Below, in pieces: positions 13,970 through 24,886 of a DNA stretch of 64,000 nucleotides (position 1 is its first letter; each line of letters starts with the position of its first letter). Source of the DNA: Mariprofundaceae bacterium (lineage in GTDB: Bacteria > Pseudomonadota > Zetaproteobacteria > Mariprofundales > Mariprofundaceae); contig JAUZRG010000068.1 in assembly GCA_030950585.1 (NCBI GenBank), forward strand, positions 1 through 64,000. Direction: 5' to 3'. The notes beneath the pieces were generated by a model that had not been told where the DNA came from, searched no databases, and saw only the letters and a list, made by a program, of their open reading frames with translations. The translations under genes and the position numbers were made by a program.

Positions 13970-14000
13970 AAAGGGTGAAGCATTGCTTCACCCTTTTTTT
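13970..14000 (+). terminator. Rho-independent terminator after porin gene
   Basis: AAAGGGTGAAGC ATT GCTTCACCCTTTTTTT is an inverted repeat with an 8-9 bp GC-containing stem followed by seven T residues on the plus strand. It also has an A-run on the other side, so it may serve the convergent gene at 13999-15612 as well. Confidence 0.9.
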
Positions 14001-15612
14001 ATGGCTGAATGTTGTTACTGTGCCAAAACTCAGACTGATAAGAGATGCCTGCGGCTGCTTCTGAATCAATGCCTTGAATGCGCTTGTGAATGAGCGTTAA
14101 ACTGTATGGTGCATATAAAAAAACCATAGGCGCATCTTGGTAGATCTCTTTTTGCATGAGGTCATACCATTGTTTTCGTTCTTTTAAATCAAAGGTTTTG
14201 GTGGCTTGTGTTAAGGCTTCATCAACCACTTTGTTTTGATAACTAAGAAAGTTGAATTGTCTTTCGTCCATTTGGGATGAATGCCAAATGGAAAATTGAT
14301 CAGGTTCAGGAGACATGCTCCAGCCTAAGATGACAGCTTCAAATTTGCGTTTATTAATGAAGTTTGCAATGAATGCAGACCATTCGACCAAACGTATTTT
14401 TACATGAATACCGATTTTTTTTAAGCGATACTGGATAATAGTTGCAGTGTCGGAGCGTGGTTTATTGCCGTTATTGGTTAAAATGGTGAAACTAAAATCC
14501 TGACCATCCTTATCTAAGAACCCATCATGATCATGATCTTTCCACCCAGCTTCTGCCAATAACTTTTTGGCCAACTCAGGTTGGTAAGATCGTGGTTTTA
14601 ATTGTTGATTGACCCAGTAGGTTCCTGGTTTGTATGGCGTGGCAATCACTTTTCCTTGCCCAAGCAAGACCCCTTGGACTATTTCTTTGCGGTTGATGGC
14701 GTAGGTAATGGCTTGACGGACTTTTTTATCTTTGAATAAAGGGTGGGTAAGGTTAAAGCCCATATAAGTATAGTTAAATCCTAATGATTTAAATATTTGA
14801 TAGTCCTCTTGCAGCTTTGGGCGACGAGGTACAATAAAGTCTTGTTGGTGTGGTGTGATGCCCATCATGTCCAAATGACCTGCTGATAGTTCTAAAAACT
14901 GAGTCGCTTGATCAGGTATCACACGTACAATACGGTTAGATAACCAGATATTACCATCAAAGTAATGCGGATTGGCTTGTAGTGTTATTTGTTGTTGTGC
15001 TCTCCATTTCTTCAAAAAATAGGGACCTAATGTTGCTTTCGGATGGCGGCCTAGCGATGTTTTCATGATTTTTTCATGTAAGAAAATATGCTTAGGTAAA
15101 ATGGCTAAACTAGCCCAGCTCGAAAGGGCGGGGGAATAAGGCTCCTTATAGTGGACAATAAAAGTATAGGGATCAGGCGTTTCAAAAGATGTTATTTTCT
15201 CATAATCTGATCTATAAGGGCTTTGCGTATAGGGGTCTTGAATGAGTTTTAAGGTAAATGCACAGTCAGCAGAGCTAAAGGCTTGGCCGTCACTCCATGA
15301 AATATCCTTGCGTAGTTCAAAGCGAATGCTTAAATTGTCGTCGCTAATATGCCAAGCTGTGCTAAGCTTGTTTTTCATATTGAGATTACGATCATACTCT
15401 AATAAGGGTAGATATAAAAAAGAAGAAATAGAATGGCTTGGACTATCGCCAGCCAACATAGGAATTAAGGTGCTGGCATCTGCTATGCTGGCAGAGACTA
15501 AAGTGTCGCCAGGTTGAGGGTTAAATCTCGGCTGTGTCGGTTCTTCACTAGCCAAAGCTGTTGATATATGAATGAATGAAAAGGTGAAAAAGCAAAGAAA
15601 AGATGGATGCAT
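13999..15612 (-). CDS. Extracellular solute-binding protein, peptide ABC transporter family 5
   Basis: A protein of about 537 residues of the SBP_bac_5 (DppA/OppA/NikA) family. Visible family features are the N-terminal signal sequence (MHPSFLCFFTFSFIHISTALA), DTLVSASIADASTLIP, the LRKDISWSDGQAFSSADCAF motif and VRQAITYAINRKEIVQGVL near the middle. It should bind peptides or a similar ligand in the periplasm and deliver it to an ABC permease. No permease or ATPase gene is in the window, so it is an orphan. The frame extends to 15696, but the ATG at 15612 gives a normal signal peptide. Neither start has a clear ribosome binding site. Confidence 0.82.
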   Translation of the reverse strand: MHPSFLCFFTFSFIHISTALASEEPTQPRFNPQPGDTLVSASIADASTLIPMLAGDSPSHSISSFLYLPLLEYDRNLNMKNKLSTAWHISDDNLSIRFELRKDISWSDGQAFSSADCAFTLKLIQDPYTQSPYRSDYEKITSFETPDPYTFIVHYKEPYSPALSSWASLAILPKHIFLHEKIMKTSLGRHPKATLGPYFLKKWRAQQQITLQANPHYFDGNIWLSNRIVRVIPDQATQFLELSAGHLDMMGITPHQQDFIVPRRPKLQEDYQIFKSLGFNYTYMGFNLTHPLFKDKKVRQAITYAINRKEIVQGVLLGQGKVIATPYKPGTYWVNQQLKPRSYQPELAKKLLAEAGWKDHDHDGFLDKDGQDFSFTILTNNGNKPRSDTATIIQYRLKKIGIHVKIRLVEWSAFIANFINKRKFEAVILGWSMSPEPDQFSIWHSSQMDERQFNFLSYQNKVVDEALTQATKTFDLKERKQWYDLMQKEIYQDAPMVFLYAPYSLTLIHKRIQGIDSEAAAGISYQSEFWHSNNIQP

Positions 15613-15731
15613 ATGGGGGGCCTGTGTTAGAGAAGTTAGAAATAAATTTACTTTATAAAATGTCAGTGCAATGATTGCATATGTTACTTTTTGCAACGAT
15701 ATCCTTATGATAGATTCAGGTAAAGCATAGA

Positions 15732-17906
15732 ATGCAACTTAGACAACAGAAACACTTAATCGAATCCGGCATTGTGACATCTGAGCAAATGACAGATGCC
15801 TTAGAATCTGAATTGGGCAGTAAGGGTAAAACTTTACATGCTTTACTACAGGTTTCTAATGTAGATGGAAATGCTGTGATGACGAGTTTGGCACGAATGT
15901 ATAAGGTGCCATTATTGGATATATCAGCCTTTACACCGGGGCAACGTTTATTAAATCTTTGCACAGAGCAGCTGTGTAAGGACTATGATTTATTACCCAT
16001 TGATGAAGCAAATGGCTCTATTGTTGTCGCAATGGCGAACCCAATGGACTTTACCGCTGTCGATGCCGTGCATTTCAAGATGGGTCAAAAAGTTAAACCT
16101 ATTTTTGCCCGTCCAGATTTAATCACACGCAAAATTCAAGAACTTTATCATGGTGAAAGTGATTTCAGCGATGCCATGGAACAGCTTGATGATGATGATA
16201 CAGAAAAAGAAGGCACTGAAGATCTTGATCAGCTGAAAAATGATGCCGCTGCATCACCCGTTATTAAAATGGTGAATAGTATCTTTTCACAGGCCATTAA
16301 AATCGGAAGCTCGGATATTCATATTGAAGCTGGCTTGAAGCAAAGTGTGGTTCGCTTACGGGTGGATGGTCGTCTCCGTCCTGCCTTACATTTTCCAACA
16401 AAAGCACATACGTTAATTGTTTCCAGAATTAAGATCATGTCTCAATTGGACATCTCCAATACGAGAACACCGCAAGATGGTCGTAGTGCGGTGAAATTAT
16501 GGGGTAAGAAACTAGATTTACGTGTTTCTACCTTACCTTCGGTACATGGTGAAAAAATTGTTATTCGTATTCTTGATAAAAGTGGTCTGTCGCTAGACCT
16601 CGACTTATTAGGCTTTGAAGAAACCGCATATGCACGGGTTCAGGACTGTATCGCACGTCCTACAGGCGCGGTATTGGTCACAGGGCCAACGGGTAGTGGT
16701 AAAACCACGACGCTTTATTCTTTCTTACATCATATCAATAGTGATGAAACCAATATTGTGACCGTAGAAGATCCTGTTGAGTTCCAAATTAAAGGGATTA
16801 ACCAAGTACAAGTGAATGTCAAAGCAGGCATGACCTTTGCCGCAGCATTGCGTTCGATTTTGCGTCAAGATCCTGATATTGTGATGTTGGGTGAAATTCG
16901 TGATAAAGAAACATCTCATATTGCTGTACATGCCGCACAAACAGGCCATTTGGTGTTATCGACCTTGCATACCAATGATGCGGTGGCCACTGTTTCACGT
17001 TTGGTTGAAATGGGTTTGGAACCGACCACTCTGGCAGCTTCTCTCAACCTCATTGTGGCACAACGTTTATTGCGTCGTCTATGTCCTCACTGTAAAAAAG
17101 AAGCACCTATTACGGATGAGTTGAAAAAACGTTATGATATTCCTGATAATATCGTTTTTTACGCACCTAATGGTTGTAAAAAATGTTTTAACATCGGTTA
17201 TCGTGGACGTATGGGTGCGCACGAAGTTTTATTTATGAATGACCGCTTACGTGAAATGATCAGTAATGAAAGTACGGAAAAAGACTTGGTTCTCGCTGCA
17301 CGTGAAGAAGGCATGTATACCCTTTTTGAAGATGCTATGAATAAGGCTTTGTCAGGTGTTACCAGTTTAGATGAAGTGCTTCATATCGGTGTTGCACCTG
17401 AAGGTTTTAAATTACAGCATCGTTTATCCGACACAGGAAAGTTATTATCTTTAGGCGACAGTAAAAAGAAGAAAGCAAAAGGGAATGTAAAAACCTCTGA
17501 TGGTAAAAAACGTATTTTAGTTGTCGATGACTCAAATAGTATACGTAATCTTGTTAAATTTGTTTTACAGTCCGATGGTTATGAGGTTATGGAAGCCTCA
17601 GATGGTCAAGAAGCATGGAACGCATTACAAGATGTAGTGCCAGATTTAATGATTTCTGACTGTGAAATGCCCAATATGACGGGTCCTGAGTTGGTAGAGC
17701 GTGTTCGCAGCGAAAGTTGTTTTGATACGATGCCGATCATCATGTTAACTTCTTTGCGTGATGAAGAGGATGAGGTTTTAGGTCTTGAATCTGGAGCTGA
17801 TGATTATATCATTAAGCCTGTTGAACCGATGAAGCTACAAGTGAGAGTTCGTAAAGTTTTATCCATGTATGCGCGTATTAGCCATGCCACGGGAGCTCAA
17901 GTATGA
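15732..17906 (+). CDS. PilB/GspE-type assembly ATPase fused to a response-regulator receiver
   Basis: A 724-residue fusion. Residues 1-140 form the N-terminal GspE/PilB (MshEN-like) module. Residues about 170-560 form the secretion ATPase: Walker A GPTGSGKT at 318-325, Asp box and Walker B DIVMLGEIRD at 382-391, the His box TGHLVLSTLHTNDA near 404-417, and a zinc tetracysteine (Cys451, Cys454, Cys482, Cys485). After a Lys-rich linker (577-593), residues 594-715 are a complete receiver domain with acidic pair Asp599-Asp600, phospho-acceptor Asp643, Thr673 and Lys695. It is the first gene of a chemosensory operon and overlaps cheW by 4 bp. The design implies that CheA phosphorylation acts directly on a pilus or secretion motor (inference). 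No pilin, pilC or pilQ gene is in the window. Confidence 0.9.
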   Translation: MQLRQQKHLIESGIVTSEQMTDALESELGSKGKTLHALLQVSNVDGNAVMTSLARMYKVPLLDISAFTPGQRLLNLCTEQLCKDYDLLPIDEANGSIVVAMANPMDFTAVDAVHFKMGQKVKPIFARPDLITRKIQELYHGESDFSDAMEQLDDDDTEKEGTEDLDQLKNDAAASPVIKMVNSIFSQAIKIGSSDIHIEAGLKQSVVRLRVDGRLRPALHFPTKAHTLIVSRIKIMSQLDISNTRTPQDGRSAVKLWGKKLDLRVSTLPSVHGEKIVIRILDKSGLSLDLDLLGFEETAYARVQDCIARPTGAVLVTGPTGSGKTTTLYSFLHHINSDETNIVTVEDPVEFQIKGINQVQVNVKAGMTFAAALRSILRQDPDIVMLGEIRDKETSHIAVHAAQTGHLVLSTLHTNDAVATVSRLVEMGLEPTTLAASLNLIVAQRLLRRLCPHCKKEAPITDELKKRYDIPDNIVFYAPNGCKKCFNIGYRGRMGAHEVLFMNDRLREMISNESTEKDLVLAAREEGMYTLFEDAMNKALSGVTSLDEVLHIGVAPEGFKLQHRLSDTGKLLSLGDSKKKKAKGNVKTSDGKKRILVVDDSNSIRNLVKFVLQSDGYEVMEASDGQEAWNALQDVVPDLMISDCEMPNMTGPELVERVRSESCFDTMPIIMLTSLRDEEDEVLGLESGADDYIIKPVEPMKLQVRVRKVLSMYARISHATGAQV

Positions 17907-18373
17907 AGGATTCAGAAGACACGTATCAAAATTTAGAAGACATTGCAGTACAAGATTTAAATTATGTTGAGTTATTGCATTTCACACTTGGAAAAGAAAA
18001 TATTCTGATTTTAACCAAGGATTTACAGCAGTTGGTTTTGCCTGTTCCTTATACTTATGTTCCAATGGCACCAGATCATATGTTGGGTATGGCCAATGTT
18101 CGAGGGCAAATTATTTGTGTGCTTGATTTGGCCAAAATGTTGGATATTGAAGTTGATGTCAATTCTAATGAGCAAAACCACTGTATTATTTTAAACTACC
18201 AACGTATGCATATTGGTTTGGTTGTTGGTGTTGTGAAAGGCATTTATCGCATTTTAGAAGAAGACTATGCCGCAGCAAAAAGAAAGAAAGGGGAGCATAG
18301 TGCAATGAAAGGTTCTTTAGATTATAACGGTCTTGAATGTCAGGTATTAGAAATTTCACGTTTATTAAAATAA
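17903..18373 (+). CDS. CheW-like coupling protein
   Basis: A 156-residue CheW-domain protein. The fold is indicated by TYVPMAPDHMLGMANVRGQIICVLDLAKML, the canonical region where CheW/PilI proteins have GxxxxRGxxxxxxDL, and by HIGLVVGVVKGIYRI. It should link the neighbouring receptor and kinase at the membrane, in the PilI position of a Pil-Chp type system. The start overlaps the end of the ATPase-REC gene by 4 bp (ATGA), so the two are translationally coupled. The first 20 residues are acidic and not part of the domain. Confidence 0.85.
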   Translation: MKDSEDTYQNLEDIAVQDLNYVELLHFTLGKENILILTKDLQQLVLPVPYTYVPMAPDHMLGMANVRGQIICVLDLAKMLDIEVDVNSNEQNHCIILNYQRMHIGLVVGVVKGIYRILEEDYAAAKRKKGEHSAMKGSLDYNGLECQVLEISRLLK

Positions 18374-18408
18374 TAATTTGAATTGATGTCTATTAGGGAG
18401 TAAAAGAT

Positions 18409-19848
18409 ATGGAAGTGACAAGTTTAAGTAGTCATAATAGAAAAAGTAATATTATCTCAACGTTTTTGTTTGTCTTATTGGTGGCCGTTGCTGGTGGTGT
18501 GTTCTTACAAGCAGGGAAATCTATCAAAGATTTGGAAACGGCATACCGTGAACAAATTGGCCTAGAACGGTTTAGAGCATCGTTAGGTGATGTTTTGTCA
18601 CCATTAAACGACTTAAGTTTAACGGGTGAAGCTAAGTATGCCACAAAACTTGATACCATTGCAGAAACGTTTGTTGCTTTGTATGCTGAAGTGTCAGCAT
18701 CTATTAGTTTGGAAGATACGGATAATGTCGCATTGCAAGAAGCTTTTGACTTAATGCAAGAGGTGATGGTTATTTCCGCTGAAATTTCAACTGGAAAAAT
18801 TCCAACATCACAAGCAAAAAACGTGGTAACCGTTGCGCAGAATTTAGTATATGCTGCTCAAACAAAAGTGAATGAGGTAACCAATAATTTAGAGTCTCGT
18901 TTGGAAGTCCGTACCGAAAAACAAAGAGATATTTTTAAATTATACTTAATAGGCTTAGGTCTATTTATGTTTGTTGTTTTGTTATTACCGAGTGTTTTAC
19001 GTTCAAGATCCTTTGGAATCGTTTCAAGATCTATTTCCAACATTGCAACCAATGTGGATGAAGCTTCTACTGAAATTTTAACAGCGGTAGATAAACAAGC
19101 AGTGGATGCGAATATTCAGGCTAACTCTGTGATGAAAGTAACGCAAGATTTAGAAGATATGTCTAAAAACGCAAAAAATATCGCGAAAACATCCATGGCT
19201 GTGGATCGGATTGCATCGGCAACCTTAACATCTGCCAATGATGGTGTGAATGCGGTGACGGAAGCGATTCATTATATGGGTAGGATTCGTGATGAAGTGA
19301 ACTTGATTGCTTCTAAGGTGACTTACGCGGGTGAAAAAGCTGAGCAAATTCTTGATTCTATTGGTTCGATTAAAGAAATTGCGGATGAGACCCATCTACT
19401 GGCTTTGAATGCATCGATTGAGTCTGCTGCTGCGGGCGAATTTGGTAAACGGTTTGCTGTGGTGGCCAGTGAAGTACGTAGGCTTTCAGAGCGTGCGCGT
19501 GAATTTACAGAAGAAATTCAATTGGTTGTGGATGAAGTGCATACTTCCACAAGAGAATCAGTTGAAGTGACGCAGGAAGGTCTGCGAGAAGTGGCGCAAG
19601 GCGTGGAAATTGCCCAGCGTGCGAATACAGCCTTGATTAAGATGCAGGAAATGTCTAAGAAAACCTCGCAAGCTATTCGTGCTATTACCTTGTCAACCAA
19701 ACGCCAAGATGCTACATCTCAAGAGTTCTTGGATACGATGCGTCATATTTCTGAGTTATTACAAGGTACTGCGGTGCAAATGCAGAAATCGCGTGATGCC
19801 TCTCATCGCTTGAGCGATGTATCTAAAGAACTACATAAAGTTGTATAA
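18409..19848 (+). CDS. Methyl-accepting chemotaxis protein-like receptor (PilJ-like, no HAMP)
   Basis: A 479-residue receptor. A first membrane helix (about residues 15-33), a helical extracytoplasmic region of about 150 residues, and a second membrane helix (about 184-203) lead straight into a long coiled-coil signalling domain. The hairpin tip is recognisable as [20 protein letters not shown] followed by [15 protein letters not shown]. No HAMP domain is visible between membrane and coiled coil. The tip departs from the canonical [20 protein letters not shown] at several positions, including Ala-Ala for Ala-Arg. It sits between cheW and cheA with spacers of 35 and 14 bp. No CheR or CheB is encoded nearby, so adaptation by methylation is uncertain. 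Confidence 0.87.
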
Positions 19849-19862
19849 CGGAGTAAGCGCGC

Positions 19863-22376
19863 ATGGCTGATTTTGACTTTTCTAGTTTTATTGCTGCTTT
19901 CTTTGATGAAGCACGAGATATTTTATCAGCAATTGATACCAGTCTCGTTCAGTTTGAAGAGGGTGTTTTAGATGACGAAGGCTTAATTAGCTTACGGCGT
20001 AATGCGCATACGATTAAAGGCTCGGCTTTGATGCTAGGTATTACTGATATTGGTAATGCTGGGCATCTTTTTGAAGATATTATGGAAGACTTGATTAAAA
20101 ATGAGAGTCATCGTACAGAAGACATGATTCAGTTTTTGTTTGAATTAAGAGATACCTTAGAAGTGCGTTTGGGCGATATTGATGGGAAAAATCCTATTGA
20201 TGTGGATCAATTACATGCTTCTTATGCTATCGCAATGAAGCAAACAGAAACCCCAAAACCAGCACCTCAGATAATAGAAAAAGATGAGGTGAAGGCAGAA
20301 GTTAAAGCTGATGTTAAGTTAGACGTTGTTGACGAAGTTAATGCGATTGCTGATAGTATAAATATTGAGGATTTTTCATTTAGTCAGCCAGAAGATGATG
20401 ATGCTATTATCATGGATGATATGGATGATTCAACCTTTTCTTTGATTGATGATGACGAACTTAAAGCGCTGGATAAAGAAATTGAGCGTTTTGAAACGGT
20501 AACGCCTACCCCATCGCAGGGCGCTACAGAGTCGATAGAAGATGCAGATTTCTTTGATCATGACCCAAAAGACAACCCGTTTAGACCCCATTTAGATAAT
20601 ATTGAAATGAAGGCAACTCAGCAAAAAAGCTCAGGTCATTTTTTGCGTATTGATTCACAGCGTTTGGAAGATTTATCCAACCATATTATTGAAATGAGTG
20701 CAGAAAAAACACATGTAGTGAAAATGGAAAGTGATTTTCGCCAAATTTTTCAAGATATGCGCCATCTACATAGTGCTTGGCGGCGTTTTCACTCTCAAAT
20801 GAAGGTTTTATCTGTCACAGAGCAAGAAAAGGGTATGAGTTTATTTGATAAGGCTATCGCTAGTCAGTTGGATCAATCTAAATTCTTCTTAAATAATTTT
20901 CAAGATAATATTCAAAAACGTGATATCATTGAAAAAGAGCTTCGAGATCAAGTATTAGGTCTCATGTTACGTCCACTAGATAGTATCTTCTCCACCTTTC
21001 CTCGTGCTGTACGTGATACGGCTAAACGTGCGAAGAAAAAAGTGAAGTTAATTATTAGTGGTGAATTTGTGGAGCTTGACCAAGGTGTGTCTGAGCAGCT
21101 AGTCGAAGTCTTTGTGCATTTAATTAATAATTCTATTGCCCATGGTTTTGAAACACCAGAGGAAAGAGCGCGTGTCGGTAAAATTGAAACAGGTCAGTTA
21201 ACGATTCATGCACAACAATTGGGTAACGAAGTTAAAGTTCGTGTGATTGATGATGGTCGAGGTATTGACCCTCATTTTGTGAAAAAAATAGCAGTAGAGC
21301 GAGGGGTTACGACCCAATATGAAGCTGATAAAATGGATACAGCAGAAGCGCTTGAGTTAATTTTTAGGCCAGGATTTTCAACCCGTGATAATGTGGATTC
21401 ATTATCAGGTCGTGGTATTGGTATGAATGTGGTTCAAGATACATTGCGTAAATTAACGGGCAATATACGTATTCAAAGTACGATTGGTCAGGGAACAGTG
21501 TTTGAAGTTTCTTTGCCTGTAAGTATTGCGGTACAACACGCACTTATTTTTCGTATTGGCATGCAACGTTTTGGTTTATTAGCGCATATGGTGGAGCAGG
21601 TCGTGCTTTATGATGAACATGCCAACAAGTCAGAAGGTCACCATCAGTATGAATATCAGGATACTAAAGTTCCTTTAGTGGATTTACGTCAAATTTTTCT
21701 TAATACCAGTGACGAAGAATATGTTTCTGCTGAGCCAACCATTATTATTGCCAAACACATTGAAGGTTATGTTGGTATTATTGTGGATGAGTTGCTAGAA
21801 GATACAGAGGTGGTGGTTCGAGATTTGGATCCATACCTTAAGCGTTATCAGGCACCAGGACTTATTGGCAATACGATCATTGATGATAGTAGTGTTTTGA
21901 TGCTTATTGATCCTTATGGCATTAAGGAAATGGGACGTACTGCACCAGATCAAGATTTATCATATGAAGTCGATGAAACGACTAATATTCTTGATTTAAA
22001 AATACTATTGGTAGATGACTCTCTTATTGCACGTTCTATTGAATCATCACTTTTAGAATCGATGGGTTTTGATGTTGATACGGCCATTGATGGCATGGAT
22101 GCTTTGGATAAAATGAGTAGACGGAAATACGATGTGTTGATTACGGATTTAGAAATGCCACGTTTAGATGGTTTTGGCTTGGTTAGGCGGGTTAGAGGTA
22201 ATGCTGAGCTAAATGATTTACCTATTATGGTGATTTCAACTCGTGAGAGTAAAGAAGATCGTATTAAGTGCCTGAAAGATGGTGCAAATGCTTATATGAT
22301 TAAACAACAATTAAAACCAGAAGCGTTGATGGAAAAGATTACAGAAATGGTAGAGGCAACACAAAAAGCATCTTAA
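19863..22376 (+). CDS. CheA-type hybrid histidine kinase (Hpt-HATPase-CheW-REC)
   Basis: An 837-residue kinase of the ChpA/CheA class. The N-terminal Hpt domain carries phospho-acceptor His49 in NAHTIKGSALMLG. It is followed by an acidic, low-complexity linker (about 130-260), a dimerisation region, and an HATPase core with N box HLINNSIAHGFETPEERA near 419-436, DDGRGIDP and GRGIGMNVV. A CheW-like regulatory domain then leads to a C-terminal receiver with LLVDDS near 716 and phospho-acceptor Asp762 (LITDLEMPRLDG). There is a single Hpt, unlike the many in Pseudomonas ChpA. The likely targets are its own receiver, the receiver fused to the assembly ATPase, and the free receiver at 24488-24886. 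Confidence 0.92.
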   Translation: MADFDFSSFIAAFFDEARDILSAIDTSLVQFEEGVLDDEGLISLRRNAHTIKGSALMLGITDIGNAGHLFEDIMEDLIKNESHRTEDMIQFLFELRDTLEVRLGDIDGKNPIDVDQLHASYAIAMKQTETPKPAPQIIEKDEVKAEVKADVKLDVVDEVNAIADSINIEDFSFSQPEDDDAIIMDDMDDSTFSLIDDDELKALDKEIERFETVTPTPSQGATESIEDADFFDHDPKDNPFRPHLDNIEMKATQQKSSGHFLRIDSQRLEDLSNHIIEMSAEKTHVVKMESDFRQIFQDMRHLHSAWRRFHSQMKVLSVTEQEKGMSLFDKAIASQLDQSKFFLNNFQDNIQKRDIIEKELRDQVLGLMLRPLDSIFSTFPRAVRDTAKRAKKKVKLIISGEFVELDQGVSEQLVEVFVHLINNSIAHGFETPEERARVGKIETGQLTIHAQQLGNEVKVRVIDDGRGIDPHFVKKIAVERGVTTQYEADKMDTAEALELIFRPGFSTRDNVDSLSGRGIGMNVVQDTLRKLTGNIRIQSTIGQGTVFEVSLPVSIAVQHALIFRIGMQRFGLLAHMVEQVVLYDEHANKSEGHHQYEYQDTKVPLVDLRQIFLNTSDEEYVSAEPTIIIAKHIEGYVGIIVDELLEDTEVVVRDLDPYLKRYQAPGLIGNTIIDDSSVLMLIDPYGIKEMGRTAPDQDLSYEVDETTNILDLKILLVDDSLIARSIESSLLESMGFDVDTAIDGMDALDKMSRRKYDVLITDLEMPRLDGFGLVRRVRGNAELNDLPIMVISTRESKEDRIKCLKDGANAYMIKQQLKPEALMEKITEMVEATQKAS

Positions 22377-22409
22377 TGTTTTATGATATAGTGTTGAAGG
22401 TTGGTAGGG

Positions 22410-23150
22410 TTGTTTAGATTTTTTTTAGTATGTTCTTTATGTTTGTTATTGGGGTGTCATCAAGCGTTGGTCACCCCTTTTTCTGAGAGTCGCCTACAAG
22501 TTGCGCGCGCACATCAAGCTGGTTTAAAACAGATTCAGACAGAGTTGAGCACCTCAACCTTAAAAGGGTTGAAGGCAGCAAAACCTGATGTTCAATCAGT
22601 GCAATGGATGACGTTTGATAAACTCAAGCAAGGTGCTTTAAGTGCAGGTGTACAACGCTTGGATATGACAGCAAAGGTTTTTCAGTTCTCTTTTGGTAAA
22701 AGTTGGTACAAAGCATTTCGTTTGCCGCAAATGAGTAATCCTTATAAATTGGTGCTTTATAGTTATGCTAAAAATGGCATGGGTGCAGGTAGTATTTTTT
22801 ATCCTACATTGGTTTTTGTTGACCATGCTTTTCAGATTACCCGTGTGCTCACACCCCAAATGAATGATAATGATTCTATGTTGATGAAATTAACAGGGGA
22901 AATCATGTTGAAAGGGATGGATCATTCACAAGAGGCTTATGTGATTGTGGCAACGAGTGATGCTTTATTGCAAGCTTCCACATCAATGTTATCAATGGCT
23001 TCGGTGGGTTTTGGTGATATTGAAGACCCATATGCTGAGACAGGTATACCCAAAATGCAGTATGTGGTGCACAAGCGTGCGCATTCCCCAGTGGGATCTA
23101 TGCGAGTCTTTTGGAAGAACATAGAGAAAGACACACCTGCATTAGAGTAA
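22410..23150 (+). CDS. Lipoprotein of chemosensory operon, possibly MalM-like
   Basis: About 246 residues with a signal peptide and lipobox (LCLLLGCHQA), so probably anchored in a membrane and facing the periplasm. The start is a TTG. The second in-frame TTG at 22410 has GAAGG at good distance and is preferred to the TTG at 22401. The central part (YKLVLYSYAKNGMGAGSIFYPTLVFVD) and the end (HSPVGSMRVF) recall the MalM family of periplasmic maltose-operon proteins, a weak similarity judged by eye. It follows cheA by 33 bp and probably belongs to the same transcript. Function is unknown. A periplasmic partner of the receptor or of the surface appendage is possible. Confidence 0.65.
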   Translation: MFRFFLVCSLCLLLGCHQALVTPFSESRLQVARAHQAGLKQIQTELSTSTLKGLKAAKPDVQSVQWMTFDKLKQGALSAGVQRLDMTAKVFQFSFGKSWYKAFRLPQMSNPYKLVLYSYAKNGMGAGSIFYPTLVFVDHAFQITRVLTPQMNDNDSMLMKLTGEIMLKGMDHSQEAYVIVATSDALLQASTSMLSMASVGFGDIEDPYAETGIPKMQYVVHKRAHSPVGSMRVFWKNIEKDTPALE

Positions 23151-23170
23151 AGCAAGGTTTTATCTAAAAG

Positions 23171-23845
23171 ATGTTCACGATTGCAATTATTATCCCTGTT
23201 TTAAACGAAGCTGCTTATATTAAAAAATATGGTGGCTTGTTTGCATGCCTTGATGCTGAGGTTTTGTTTGTGGATGGTGGATCGCAAGATGAGACTGGCA
23301 CATGGCTAAAAAAGCATCATTTGGATGTGATTCATAGTCACTTAGGAAGAGCCGCGCAAATGAATCAAGGTGCAGCACAGTTTAATGCTGATATTTTTGT
23401 TTTTCTTCATGCCGATACTGAGTTTAAGGCTCAGCACCTGCAAGCCATTCAACAAGTCATGTTGGATGAAACCATATACTCTGGCCGTTTTGATATTTGT
23501 TTGTCAGGTCAACATAGGATGCTACGGATGGTTGAATTTATGATCAACTGGCGGTCTCGCTTGACGCGCATTTCCACAGGTGATCAGGTCATGTTTATGC
23601 GTCGTTCTGTTTTTGAAGAACTTGGTGGTTTTCCGATGCTGCCTTTGATGGAAGATATTGCTTTGAGTCGCCTTTTAAAAAGAAAAGGAAAGGTTGCCTG
23701 TTTAAGAGAAAAAGTGATGACTTCAAGCCGTCGCTGGGAAGAGAAAGGTATTTTATCCACTATTTTTCTGATGTGGAGTCTCAGGTTTTTATTTTTTATA
23801 GGTGTCCCTGCTAAGAAATTACATCAGTTCTATATGTCAAAATAA
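23171..23845 (+). CDS. Family 2 glycosyltransferase (TIGR04283 type)
   Basis: A 224-residue GT-A fold glycosyltransferase. It has the N-terminal IIPVLNEAAYIKKY, the nucleotide-sugar-binding VLFVDGGSQDETGTWL with VDGGS, the metal-binding FLHADTEF and the C-terminal GGFPMLPLMEDIALSRLLKR. Proteins of this size and pattern belong to the TIGR04283 group, which commonly sits next to a DUF2064/TIGR04282 partner, as here (the next gene starts within its stop codon). The acceptor is unknown. The pair's place at the end of a pilus/chemosensory operon hints at modification of a surface component, which is inference only. Confidence 0.8.
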   Translation: MFTIAIIIPVLNEAAYIKKYGGLFACLDAEVLFVDGGSQDETGTWLKKHHLDVIHSHLGRAAQMNQGAAQFNADIFVFLHADTEFKAQHLQAIQQVMLDETIYSGRFDICLSGQHRMLRMVEFMINWRSRLTRISTGDQVMFMRRSVFEELGGFPMLPLMEDIALSRLLKRKGKVACLREKVMTSSRRWEEKGILSTIFLMWSLRFLFFIGVPAKKLHQFYMSK

Positions 23846-24480
23846 TGATTCGTCCTATTATTTTATGTAAAGCCCCTGTTGTTGCTAAAGTCAAAACACG
23901 TTTAACCCCTCAATTAACAGATCAGCAGGCATGTGAAGTTCATCGTTTGATGGCATCATATTTCATTCATAAGGTCAGTGCTTATTACCCTCAAGCATGG
24001 TTAGCAGTGGATGATTTATCACATCCTTTTTTTCAACAGTTTCATTTAAAATTGGTCGCACAAGGCTTTGGTTGTTTAGGGGATAAAATACAGCGGTTAA
24101 TGCATCAAAATATTCAATCGGGTATGCAAGCAAGTTTGTTTTTAGGCACAGATAGTCCACATTTATCGACTGCGCGTTTAAAGGCAGCGCATCTTGTTTT
24201 ACAAAATAAGGATGTGGTTGTGGCACCTGTAGAAGATGGTGGTTATCAAATGATTGCGGTGAAAGGTGATCAACCTGCGTTGTTTCATGGTATCAGCTGG
24301 GGCTCGGATCAGGTGATGGCACAAAGTTTAGAAAGGATCGTTGAGCTTGGTTTATCAGTCAATATATTAAGCACAAGTTTTGATGTGGATCGGTTTGAAG
24401 ATTTAATACGCTTGCTGCAACGAAGTCATTCCTTTAAGTTTTGGTCACATCATACAGGTGTGATCAGTAAATTATGTTAG
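23845..24480 (+). CDS. DUF2064/TIGR04282 glycosyltransferase-like protein
   Basis: A 211-residue protein of the DUF2064 (TIGR04282) family, related to nucleotidyltransferase-type GT-A enzymes. Diagnostic pieces are the N-terminal ILCKAPVVAKVKTRL, with the lysine/arginine-rich nucleotide-binding loop, FLGTDSPHLSTARL with GTDSP, and APVEDGGYQMIAV. The ATG overlaps the stop of the preceding glycosyltransferase (TAATG), implying coupled translation and joint function. Biochemical activity of the family is poorly defined. Confidence 0.8.
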   Translation: MIRPIILCKAPVVAKVKTRLTPQLTDQQACEVHRLMASYFIHKVSAYYPQAWLAVDDLSHPFFQQFHLKLVAQGFGCLGDKIQRLMHQNIQSGMQASLFLGTDSPHLSTARLKAAHLVLQNKDVVVAPVEDGGYQMIAVKGDQPALFHGISWGSDQVMAQSLERIVELGLSVNILSTSFDVDRFEDLIRLLQRSHSFKFWSHHTGVISKLC

Positions 24481-24487
24481 GTTAGCT

Positions 24488-24886
24488 ATGATAAATAAAC
24501 AAATGATGATTGTTGATGATAATGATATGTTGCGTATTGTCATGAGGCGCATGGTTTTATTGTGGGCTAAAAATAATGATATTGACTTGGATTTGATGTT
24601 ATTTGAAAATGGCAAAGGAGCTTTTGAATATTTAAAGACCAATCCTTTACCTGACTGTATCCTATTAGACGTGCGTATGCCTGAAATGACAGGGCCAGAA
24701 TTTTTACAAAATAGTTTAGACATCGGTAAAAAGTGCGATGCCATTACGATTATCATTACGGGTTATGCTGAAGATATTGAAGCCTATTTTGGCAACAATG
24801 CCAACAGCATTAATCATTTAAGAAAACCGTTTAAGGTTACCGCTTTGCATGAGAAACTGAGTGAGGTTATGCAGGCAGCGGAATGA
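24488..24886 (+). CDS. Single-domain response regulator
   Basis: A 132-residue stand-alone receiver domain. It has the acidic pocket (MMIVDDND, Asp10-Asp11), phospho-acceptor Asp61 in LLDVRMPEMTGP, Thr/Ser switch position in ITGYAED and Lys in LRKPFKV. There is no output domain, so it would act by protein contact, like CheY or PilG/PilH. It starts 7 bp after the glycosyltransferase gene and ends convergently, overlapping the 3' end of clpA by 20 bp. It is likely a phosphate sink or second output of the upstream CheA (inference). Confidence 0.87.
   Translation: MINKQMMIVDDNDMLRIVMRRMVLLWAKNNDIDLDLMLFENGKGAFEYLKTNPLPDCILLDVRMPEMTGPEFLQNSLDIGKKCDAITIIITGYAEDIEAYFGNNANSINHLRKPFKVTALHEKLSEVMQAAE

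Follow-up and report, generated by a model that had tools for sequence, protein, structure and literature searches.

A receiver domain joined to a PilB-type ATPase within a conserved CheA operon of the Mariprofundaceae: a candidate direct link between a chemosensory array and a pilus motor

How would a chemosensory array act on a pilus motor when the receiver domain that could accept its phosphate is part of the motor ATPase itself? This question is raised by a locus of a Mariprofundaceae bacterium (GenBank assembly GCA_030950585.1, contig JAUZRG010000068.1), located in the stretch of 64,000 nucleotides, positions 1 to 64,000 of the forward strand, which was analyzed here and is called the window. 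In this locus a gene designated pilB-REC encodes an assembly ATPase of the PilB/GspE type that continues into a C-terminal receiver (REC), and it is followed by genes for CheW, for a methyl-accepting chemotaxis protein (MCP) and for a CheA bearing a receiver of its own (Table 1). An initial annotation, made from the letters of the sequence, had described this arrangement and proposed that phosphate would reach the extension motor directly, in a "short-circuited" design for a putative mechanochemical sensing that may lack methylation-based adaptation. The reading frames and domain profiles bear out the description, including the receptor without a HAMP match, and the mechanism proposed from it is weighed below.

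The fused protein combines a complete ATPase and a complete receiver, joined by a linker of about 42 residues. Walker A occupies residues 318-325, the zinc site is formed by Cys451, Cys454, Cys482 and Cys485, and the receiver holds the full phosphorylation set (D599, D600, D643, T673 and K695), so that every residue first named was recovered. Walker A, the Asp box, Walker B, the His box and the zinc and phospho-acceptor residues are unchanged across 24 aligned orthologues of the fusion and, because they are conserved across genomes, the early concern that the fusion could be a sequencing artefact, or a frameshift, can be dismissed. Moreover, the ATPase and the receiver are the most conserved regions of the protein, with a mean column conservation of 0.80 and 0.74, respectively, against 0.50-0.62 in the other regions, which argues that both activities are in use. 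An AlphaFold model of the fusion (predicted local distance difference test, pLDDT, 77; predicted template modelling score, pTM, 0.49) places the domains, their relative arrangement being unreliable, and a Foldseek search with this model recovers PilB/GspE only. As for the N-terminal MshEN-like domain, the motif for cyclic di-GMP (c-di-GMP) binding (RLGxx..., also in a relaxed form) was found in none of the 24 fused proteins, and an input of c-di-GMP through MshEN was consequently rejected; the motif is likewise absent from the canonical PilBs in the family set, so this trait is not distinctive.

The fusion belongs to a conserved unit of four genes, pilB-REC, cheW, MCP and cheA-REC, which are separated here by -4, 35 and 14 bp and which keep an identical order in each of the eight loci for which long flanks are available. 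Within the Zetaproteobacteria, the nearest named relatives of the genome are Mariprofundaceae metagenome-assembled genomes (MAGs), Mariprofundus ferrooxydans PV-1 and M. micogutta, the last two being cultured bacteria that also carry the operon, and the fusion, whole or cut at contig ends, is found in 52 of the 74 genomes of the family; beyond these, one genome has the end of the gene at a contig edge and another carries a core-deleted form discussed below. It also occurs in a sister family (G037) and, outside the order, in a genome of another lineage (G041), at 49% identity over its full length, where the set contains cheW twice and a fragment resembling PilT lies near. No C-terminal fusion was found in about 320 other sampled Pseudomonadota genomes, where, N-terminal REC fusions apart, unfused ATPases score at most about 440 bits. 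In the tree, the fused ATPases form one fully supported clade, separate from canonical PilB and from GspE, which is consistent with the fusion having arisen once and later having been lost or transferred. In one genome (G072, L138:3772-5972) the fusion is read in two overlapping frames that meet near residue 490, with the ATPase apart from the receiver, either by sequencing error or by a real split.

Of the 74 family genomes, 51 have the fusion together with an orthologous cheA, 16 have neither, 3 have the fusion alone and 4 have cheA alone (Fisher p = 6e-10, a value not corrected for kinship). The companionship suggested at first, of the fusion always with cheW-MCP-cheA, is thus the rule and admits exceptions; conversely, C-terminal fusions without linked che genes are few, and it is the N-terminal type of REC-PilB that exists beside ordinary kinases. 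Distance correlations within the operon, of 0.84 between PilB-REC and CheW and of 0.72 between PilB-REC and CheA, merely restate co-inheritance.

The conserved fusion, its invariant receiver and ATPase residues and the near-constant operon with cheW-MCP-cheA make direct phosphotransfer from CheA to the motor the natural inference. We give a probability of roughly 0.55 to the reading that CheA phosphorylates the fused receiver, and that this alters in cis the activity or the recruitment of what is a second assembly ATPase of the cell. The MCP-CheW-CheA array would set the phosphorylation of CheA at His49, from which the phosphoryl group would pass to D643 of the receiver; phospho-D643 would then modify the activity of the fused ATPase, or its recruitment to the platform of an ordinary type IVa (T4a) pilus, in such a way that extension by this accessory motor would track the receptor signal, with the unfused PilB giving basal extension. 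In turn, the receiver linked to CheA might serve as an intramolecular sink or as a second output. The phosphotransfer, the direction of its effect, the pilus served and the stimulus sensed are all inferred from gene content, conservation and linkage. As to the direction, inhibition is as plausible as activation, since EmvR, a receiver protein of Xanthomonas oryzae, binds to PilB and slows its ATP hydrolysis, Asp15, Asp59 and Thr87 being needed (PMC11973254).

Several observations weigh against this reading and lend some support to others. The genome, which is 99% complete, also contains an ordinary pilB (at C169), which scores 715.3 bits and passes the TIGR02538 cut-off, followed by pilC and by a histidine kinase/NtrC-type regulator pair. 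The presence of an unfused PilB-PilC makes the fusion a second assembly-type ATPase; the idea that it might be the only pilB, and hence the sole extension motor, is discarded. Furthermore, one relative (G011, L141:1906-3417) encodes, upstream of a retained cheW-MCP-cheA, a protein of 503 residues that retains MshEN, the first part of T2SSE and the receiver in full, the ATPase core having been lost in frame. Together with the inhibitory precedent of EmvR (PMC11973254), the canonical PilB and this core-less variant would suit a fused protein acting chiefly as a regulator or localization factor, which would enter or compete with the canonical PilB hexamer, or occupy the platform, with phosphorylation toggling the interference. 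Nevertheless, a non-catalytic decoy would have no need of the catalytic and zinc residues that are invariant in the 24 orthologues, and G011 is a single draft genome in which the remaining ATPase segment is degenerate and may be decaying; we regard this explanation as unlikely.

A further difficulty comes from two genomes, G012 (L146:1-1268) and G014 (L142:6272-8454), where cheW-MCP-cheA are kept and the fusion gene is gone, a divergent LysM transglycosylase gene directly adjoining cheW. Their CheA must have another use, and the wording "short-circuited" was therefore too strong. Such genomes, the receiver carried by CheA itself and the several single-domain receivers of the genome, one of them at 24488-24886, could be understood if the fused receiver were a phosphate sink similar to PilH, the main output of CheA being another receiver, its own or a stand-alone one. 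However, the receiver at 24488 is not conserved with the operon, and a sink does not require fusion to an ATPase with all its residues conserved, which makes this option somewhat less probable again. Also to be set against direct control by CheA are G138 and G191, which have other sequence after the fusion and no adjacent che genes. In a few other genomes the locus is interrupted: the contig stops within 0.6 kb of the fusion in G153, a contig end cuts the locus in G029, and G256 offers fragments only.

The cognate machine is likewise not certain, as judged from sequence scores: the fused ATPase fails both the canonical PilB equivalog TIGR02538 (607.4 bits, cut-off 675.65) and the GspE equivalog TIGR02533 (572.9 bits, cut-off 630.25). 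Besides, the genome has three PilT/PilU-type ATPases, a type II secretion system (T2SS) with its own gspE beside gspD and gspF, and two strong platform proteins, the canonical PilC and GspF. A third, divergent platform (T2SSF, 337 residues) lies between two pilin genes in an orphan set without its own ATPase (G000:C203, L107:8165-10156), and no orthologue of it was found in 78 other genomes searched. The near equidistance of the fusion from PilB and GspE, and the existence of this ATPase-less set, would fit a fused ATPase powering another filament system, either type II secretion or, here, the orphan set, rather than the T4a pilus. Yet type II secretion is already provided with gspE, and a platform private to this genome leaves a conserved family of fusions unexplained; the C203 set is excluded as a dedicated partner, and the explanation as a whole is very improbable. 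As no dedicated platform for the fused ATPase is found across the family, the T4a pilus machine is most likely used.

Returning to control of the fused motor by CheA, the MCP, the stand-alone CheW and the CheA of the operon are the only copies in the genome. FliM was not found in this 99% complete genome nor in G041; the fusion and cheA thus occur in genomes without FliM, and their output need not be flagellar. To a broader and more tentative proposal we give somewhat less than even odds: the sole chemoreceptor array of a non-flagellated bacterium would directly drive a switchable second extension motor, the receiver being a permanent motor domain that replaces any diffusible regulator. The claim that CheR and CheB are lacking stands for the operon and fails for the genome, which encodes one CheR, the only one of the genome, and an adjacent receiver-less CheB-like methylesterase within a cluster of hybrid histidine kinase genes on a different contig.

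With respect to the input side, a domain profile search gave no match to HAMP in the operon MCP. Its predicted model has periplasmic helices at residues 63-72, 75-96 and 103-127, and the sensor domain gives weak helical-bundle matches only, with no clue to a ligand. In some genomes of the Mariprofundus group (L046:12748-14190, L147:5473-6909, L138:1845-3278) the MCP has a shortened and divergent signalling-hairpin tip, without the conserved AAGEFGKRF, and in some relatives (L043, L044, L146) CheA has two Hpt domains rather than one.

Concerning the flanks, many relatives have divergent upstream genes for a LysM lytic transglycosylase and for an orphan solute-binding protein of family 5, and here the latter alone is left. 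The gene of this solute-binding protein adjoins the operon in G041 and in five of the seven relatives examined with long flanks, and its product is a possible candidate partner of the receptor. The genes that follow cheA at 22401-24886 adjoin it in none of the same seven relatives, which excludes the lipoprotein and glycosyltransferase genes as members of the system; the link to a surface structure that they had suggested is local to this genome, where the glycosyltransferase pair scores above the cut-offs of the arsenosugar-biosynthesis families TIGR04283 and TIGR04282. A promoter scan gave matches at chance level, and terminator-like matches fall mostly inside genes.

Table 1. Features of the pilB-REC locus; nucleotide positions refer to the window, residue positions (aa) to PilB-REC.
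Feature	Position	Strand	Description
pilB-REC	15732..17906	+	724 aa, single unbroken frame; MshEN, PilB/GspE ATPase, C-terminal receiver
MshEN-like N-domain	aa 57-142		profile match above curated cut-off
PilB/GspE AAA+ ATPase (T2SSE, PF00437)	aa 173-550		E 1e-135; 452 bits, cut-off 24.9
Receiver (Response_reg)	aa 595-706		C-terminal; E 4e-29, above curated cut-off
cheW	17903..18373	+	adaptor; 4-bp overlap with the pilB-REC stop
MCP	18409..19848	+	chemoreceptor, MCPsignal match; membrane-anchored helical periplasmic domain, long coiled-coil signalling hairpin
cheA-REC	19863..22376	+	Hpt (His49), HATPase, CheW-like regulatory domain, C-terminal receiver
Lipoprotein, two glycosyltransferases, stand-alone receiver	22401..24886	+	MalM match; TIGR04283 and TIGR04282; receiver at 24488-24886; co-directional, tightly spaced after cheA
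Solute-binding protein, family 5 (SBP_bac_5)	13999..15696	-	divergent orphan without adjacent permease

The conservation of this operon in iron-oxidizing Zetaproteobacteria and in one more distant relative suggests direct control of a pilus motor by a sensor array. The covalent union of receiver and extension ATPase within a CheA operon makes phosphorylation, ATPase rate and motor recruitment measurable in a single polypeptide. In addition, the natural variants, i.e., a receiver without the ATPase core, che genes without the fusion and the fusion without che genes, constitute a series for locating the part that produces the output.

Among known systems, Pil-Chp of Pseudomonas aeruginosa (PilG/H/I/J/K-ChpA/B/C) shares with the operon the MCP-CheW-CheA composition, a CheA bearing Hpt and REC domains, and, as inferred in our case from the fusion, an output on the extension ATPase of a type IV pilus and the need of a receiver for the behavior of PilB. 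Indeed, the localization of PilB requires PilG and its phosphorylation (PMC12632253), a contact between PilG and PilB being unreported in Pil-Chp (PMC11656802). In contrast, the receiver is here part of the ATPase, there is one CheW and one Hpt (two in some relatives), and each receiver in the four-gene unit forms part of a larger protein, PilB or CheA. As the cluster contains neither PilG/PilH genes nor adaptation genes of the PilK/ChpB type (CheR/CheB), the four-gene system is not classed as a member of Pil-Chp.

Other systems approach single aspects of the arrangement. With EmvR, too, the extension ATPase of the pilus is the direct target of a receiver, but EmvR is a stand-alone protein working in trans and tied to an ordinary histidine kinase, ColS, rather than to CheA (PMC11973254). 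The Hik36-Hik43-Rre6-PilT2 pathway of Synechocystis likewise leads from a CheA-like kinase through a receiver to a pilus ATPase, although Rre6 is a separate protein that contacts PilT2 and not PilB (PMC7656254). In a MAG of Nealsonbacteria (candidate phyla radiation; L064:3526-7929), the gene order pilB, stand-alone receiver, pilT, pilC represents an unfused counterpart of the pairing. The covalent bond itself has a parallel in the N-terminal REC-MshEN-T2SSE proteins of Gammaproteobacteria (L129-L131, L152), which, however, carry the receiver at the opposite end, form a separate clade and, at the one annotated locus (L152), accompany multi-PAS HisKA kinases and not CheA/MCP. The association of MshEN with REC and CheA, among other domains, was reported in a survey (Wang et al., 2016, PMC5013675) whose subject is c-di-GMP binding and which, in the parts consulted, does not describe a linked chemosensory operon. 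No published account of the operon was found in the literature searched, which excluded most subscription journals. A fusion of receiver and ATPase is, then, already known; its C-terminal form within a conserved CheA operon is the part for which no description was found.

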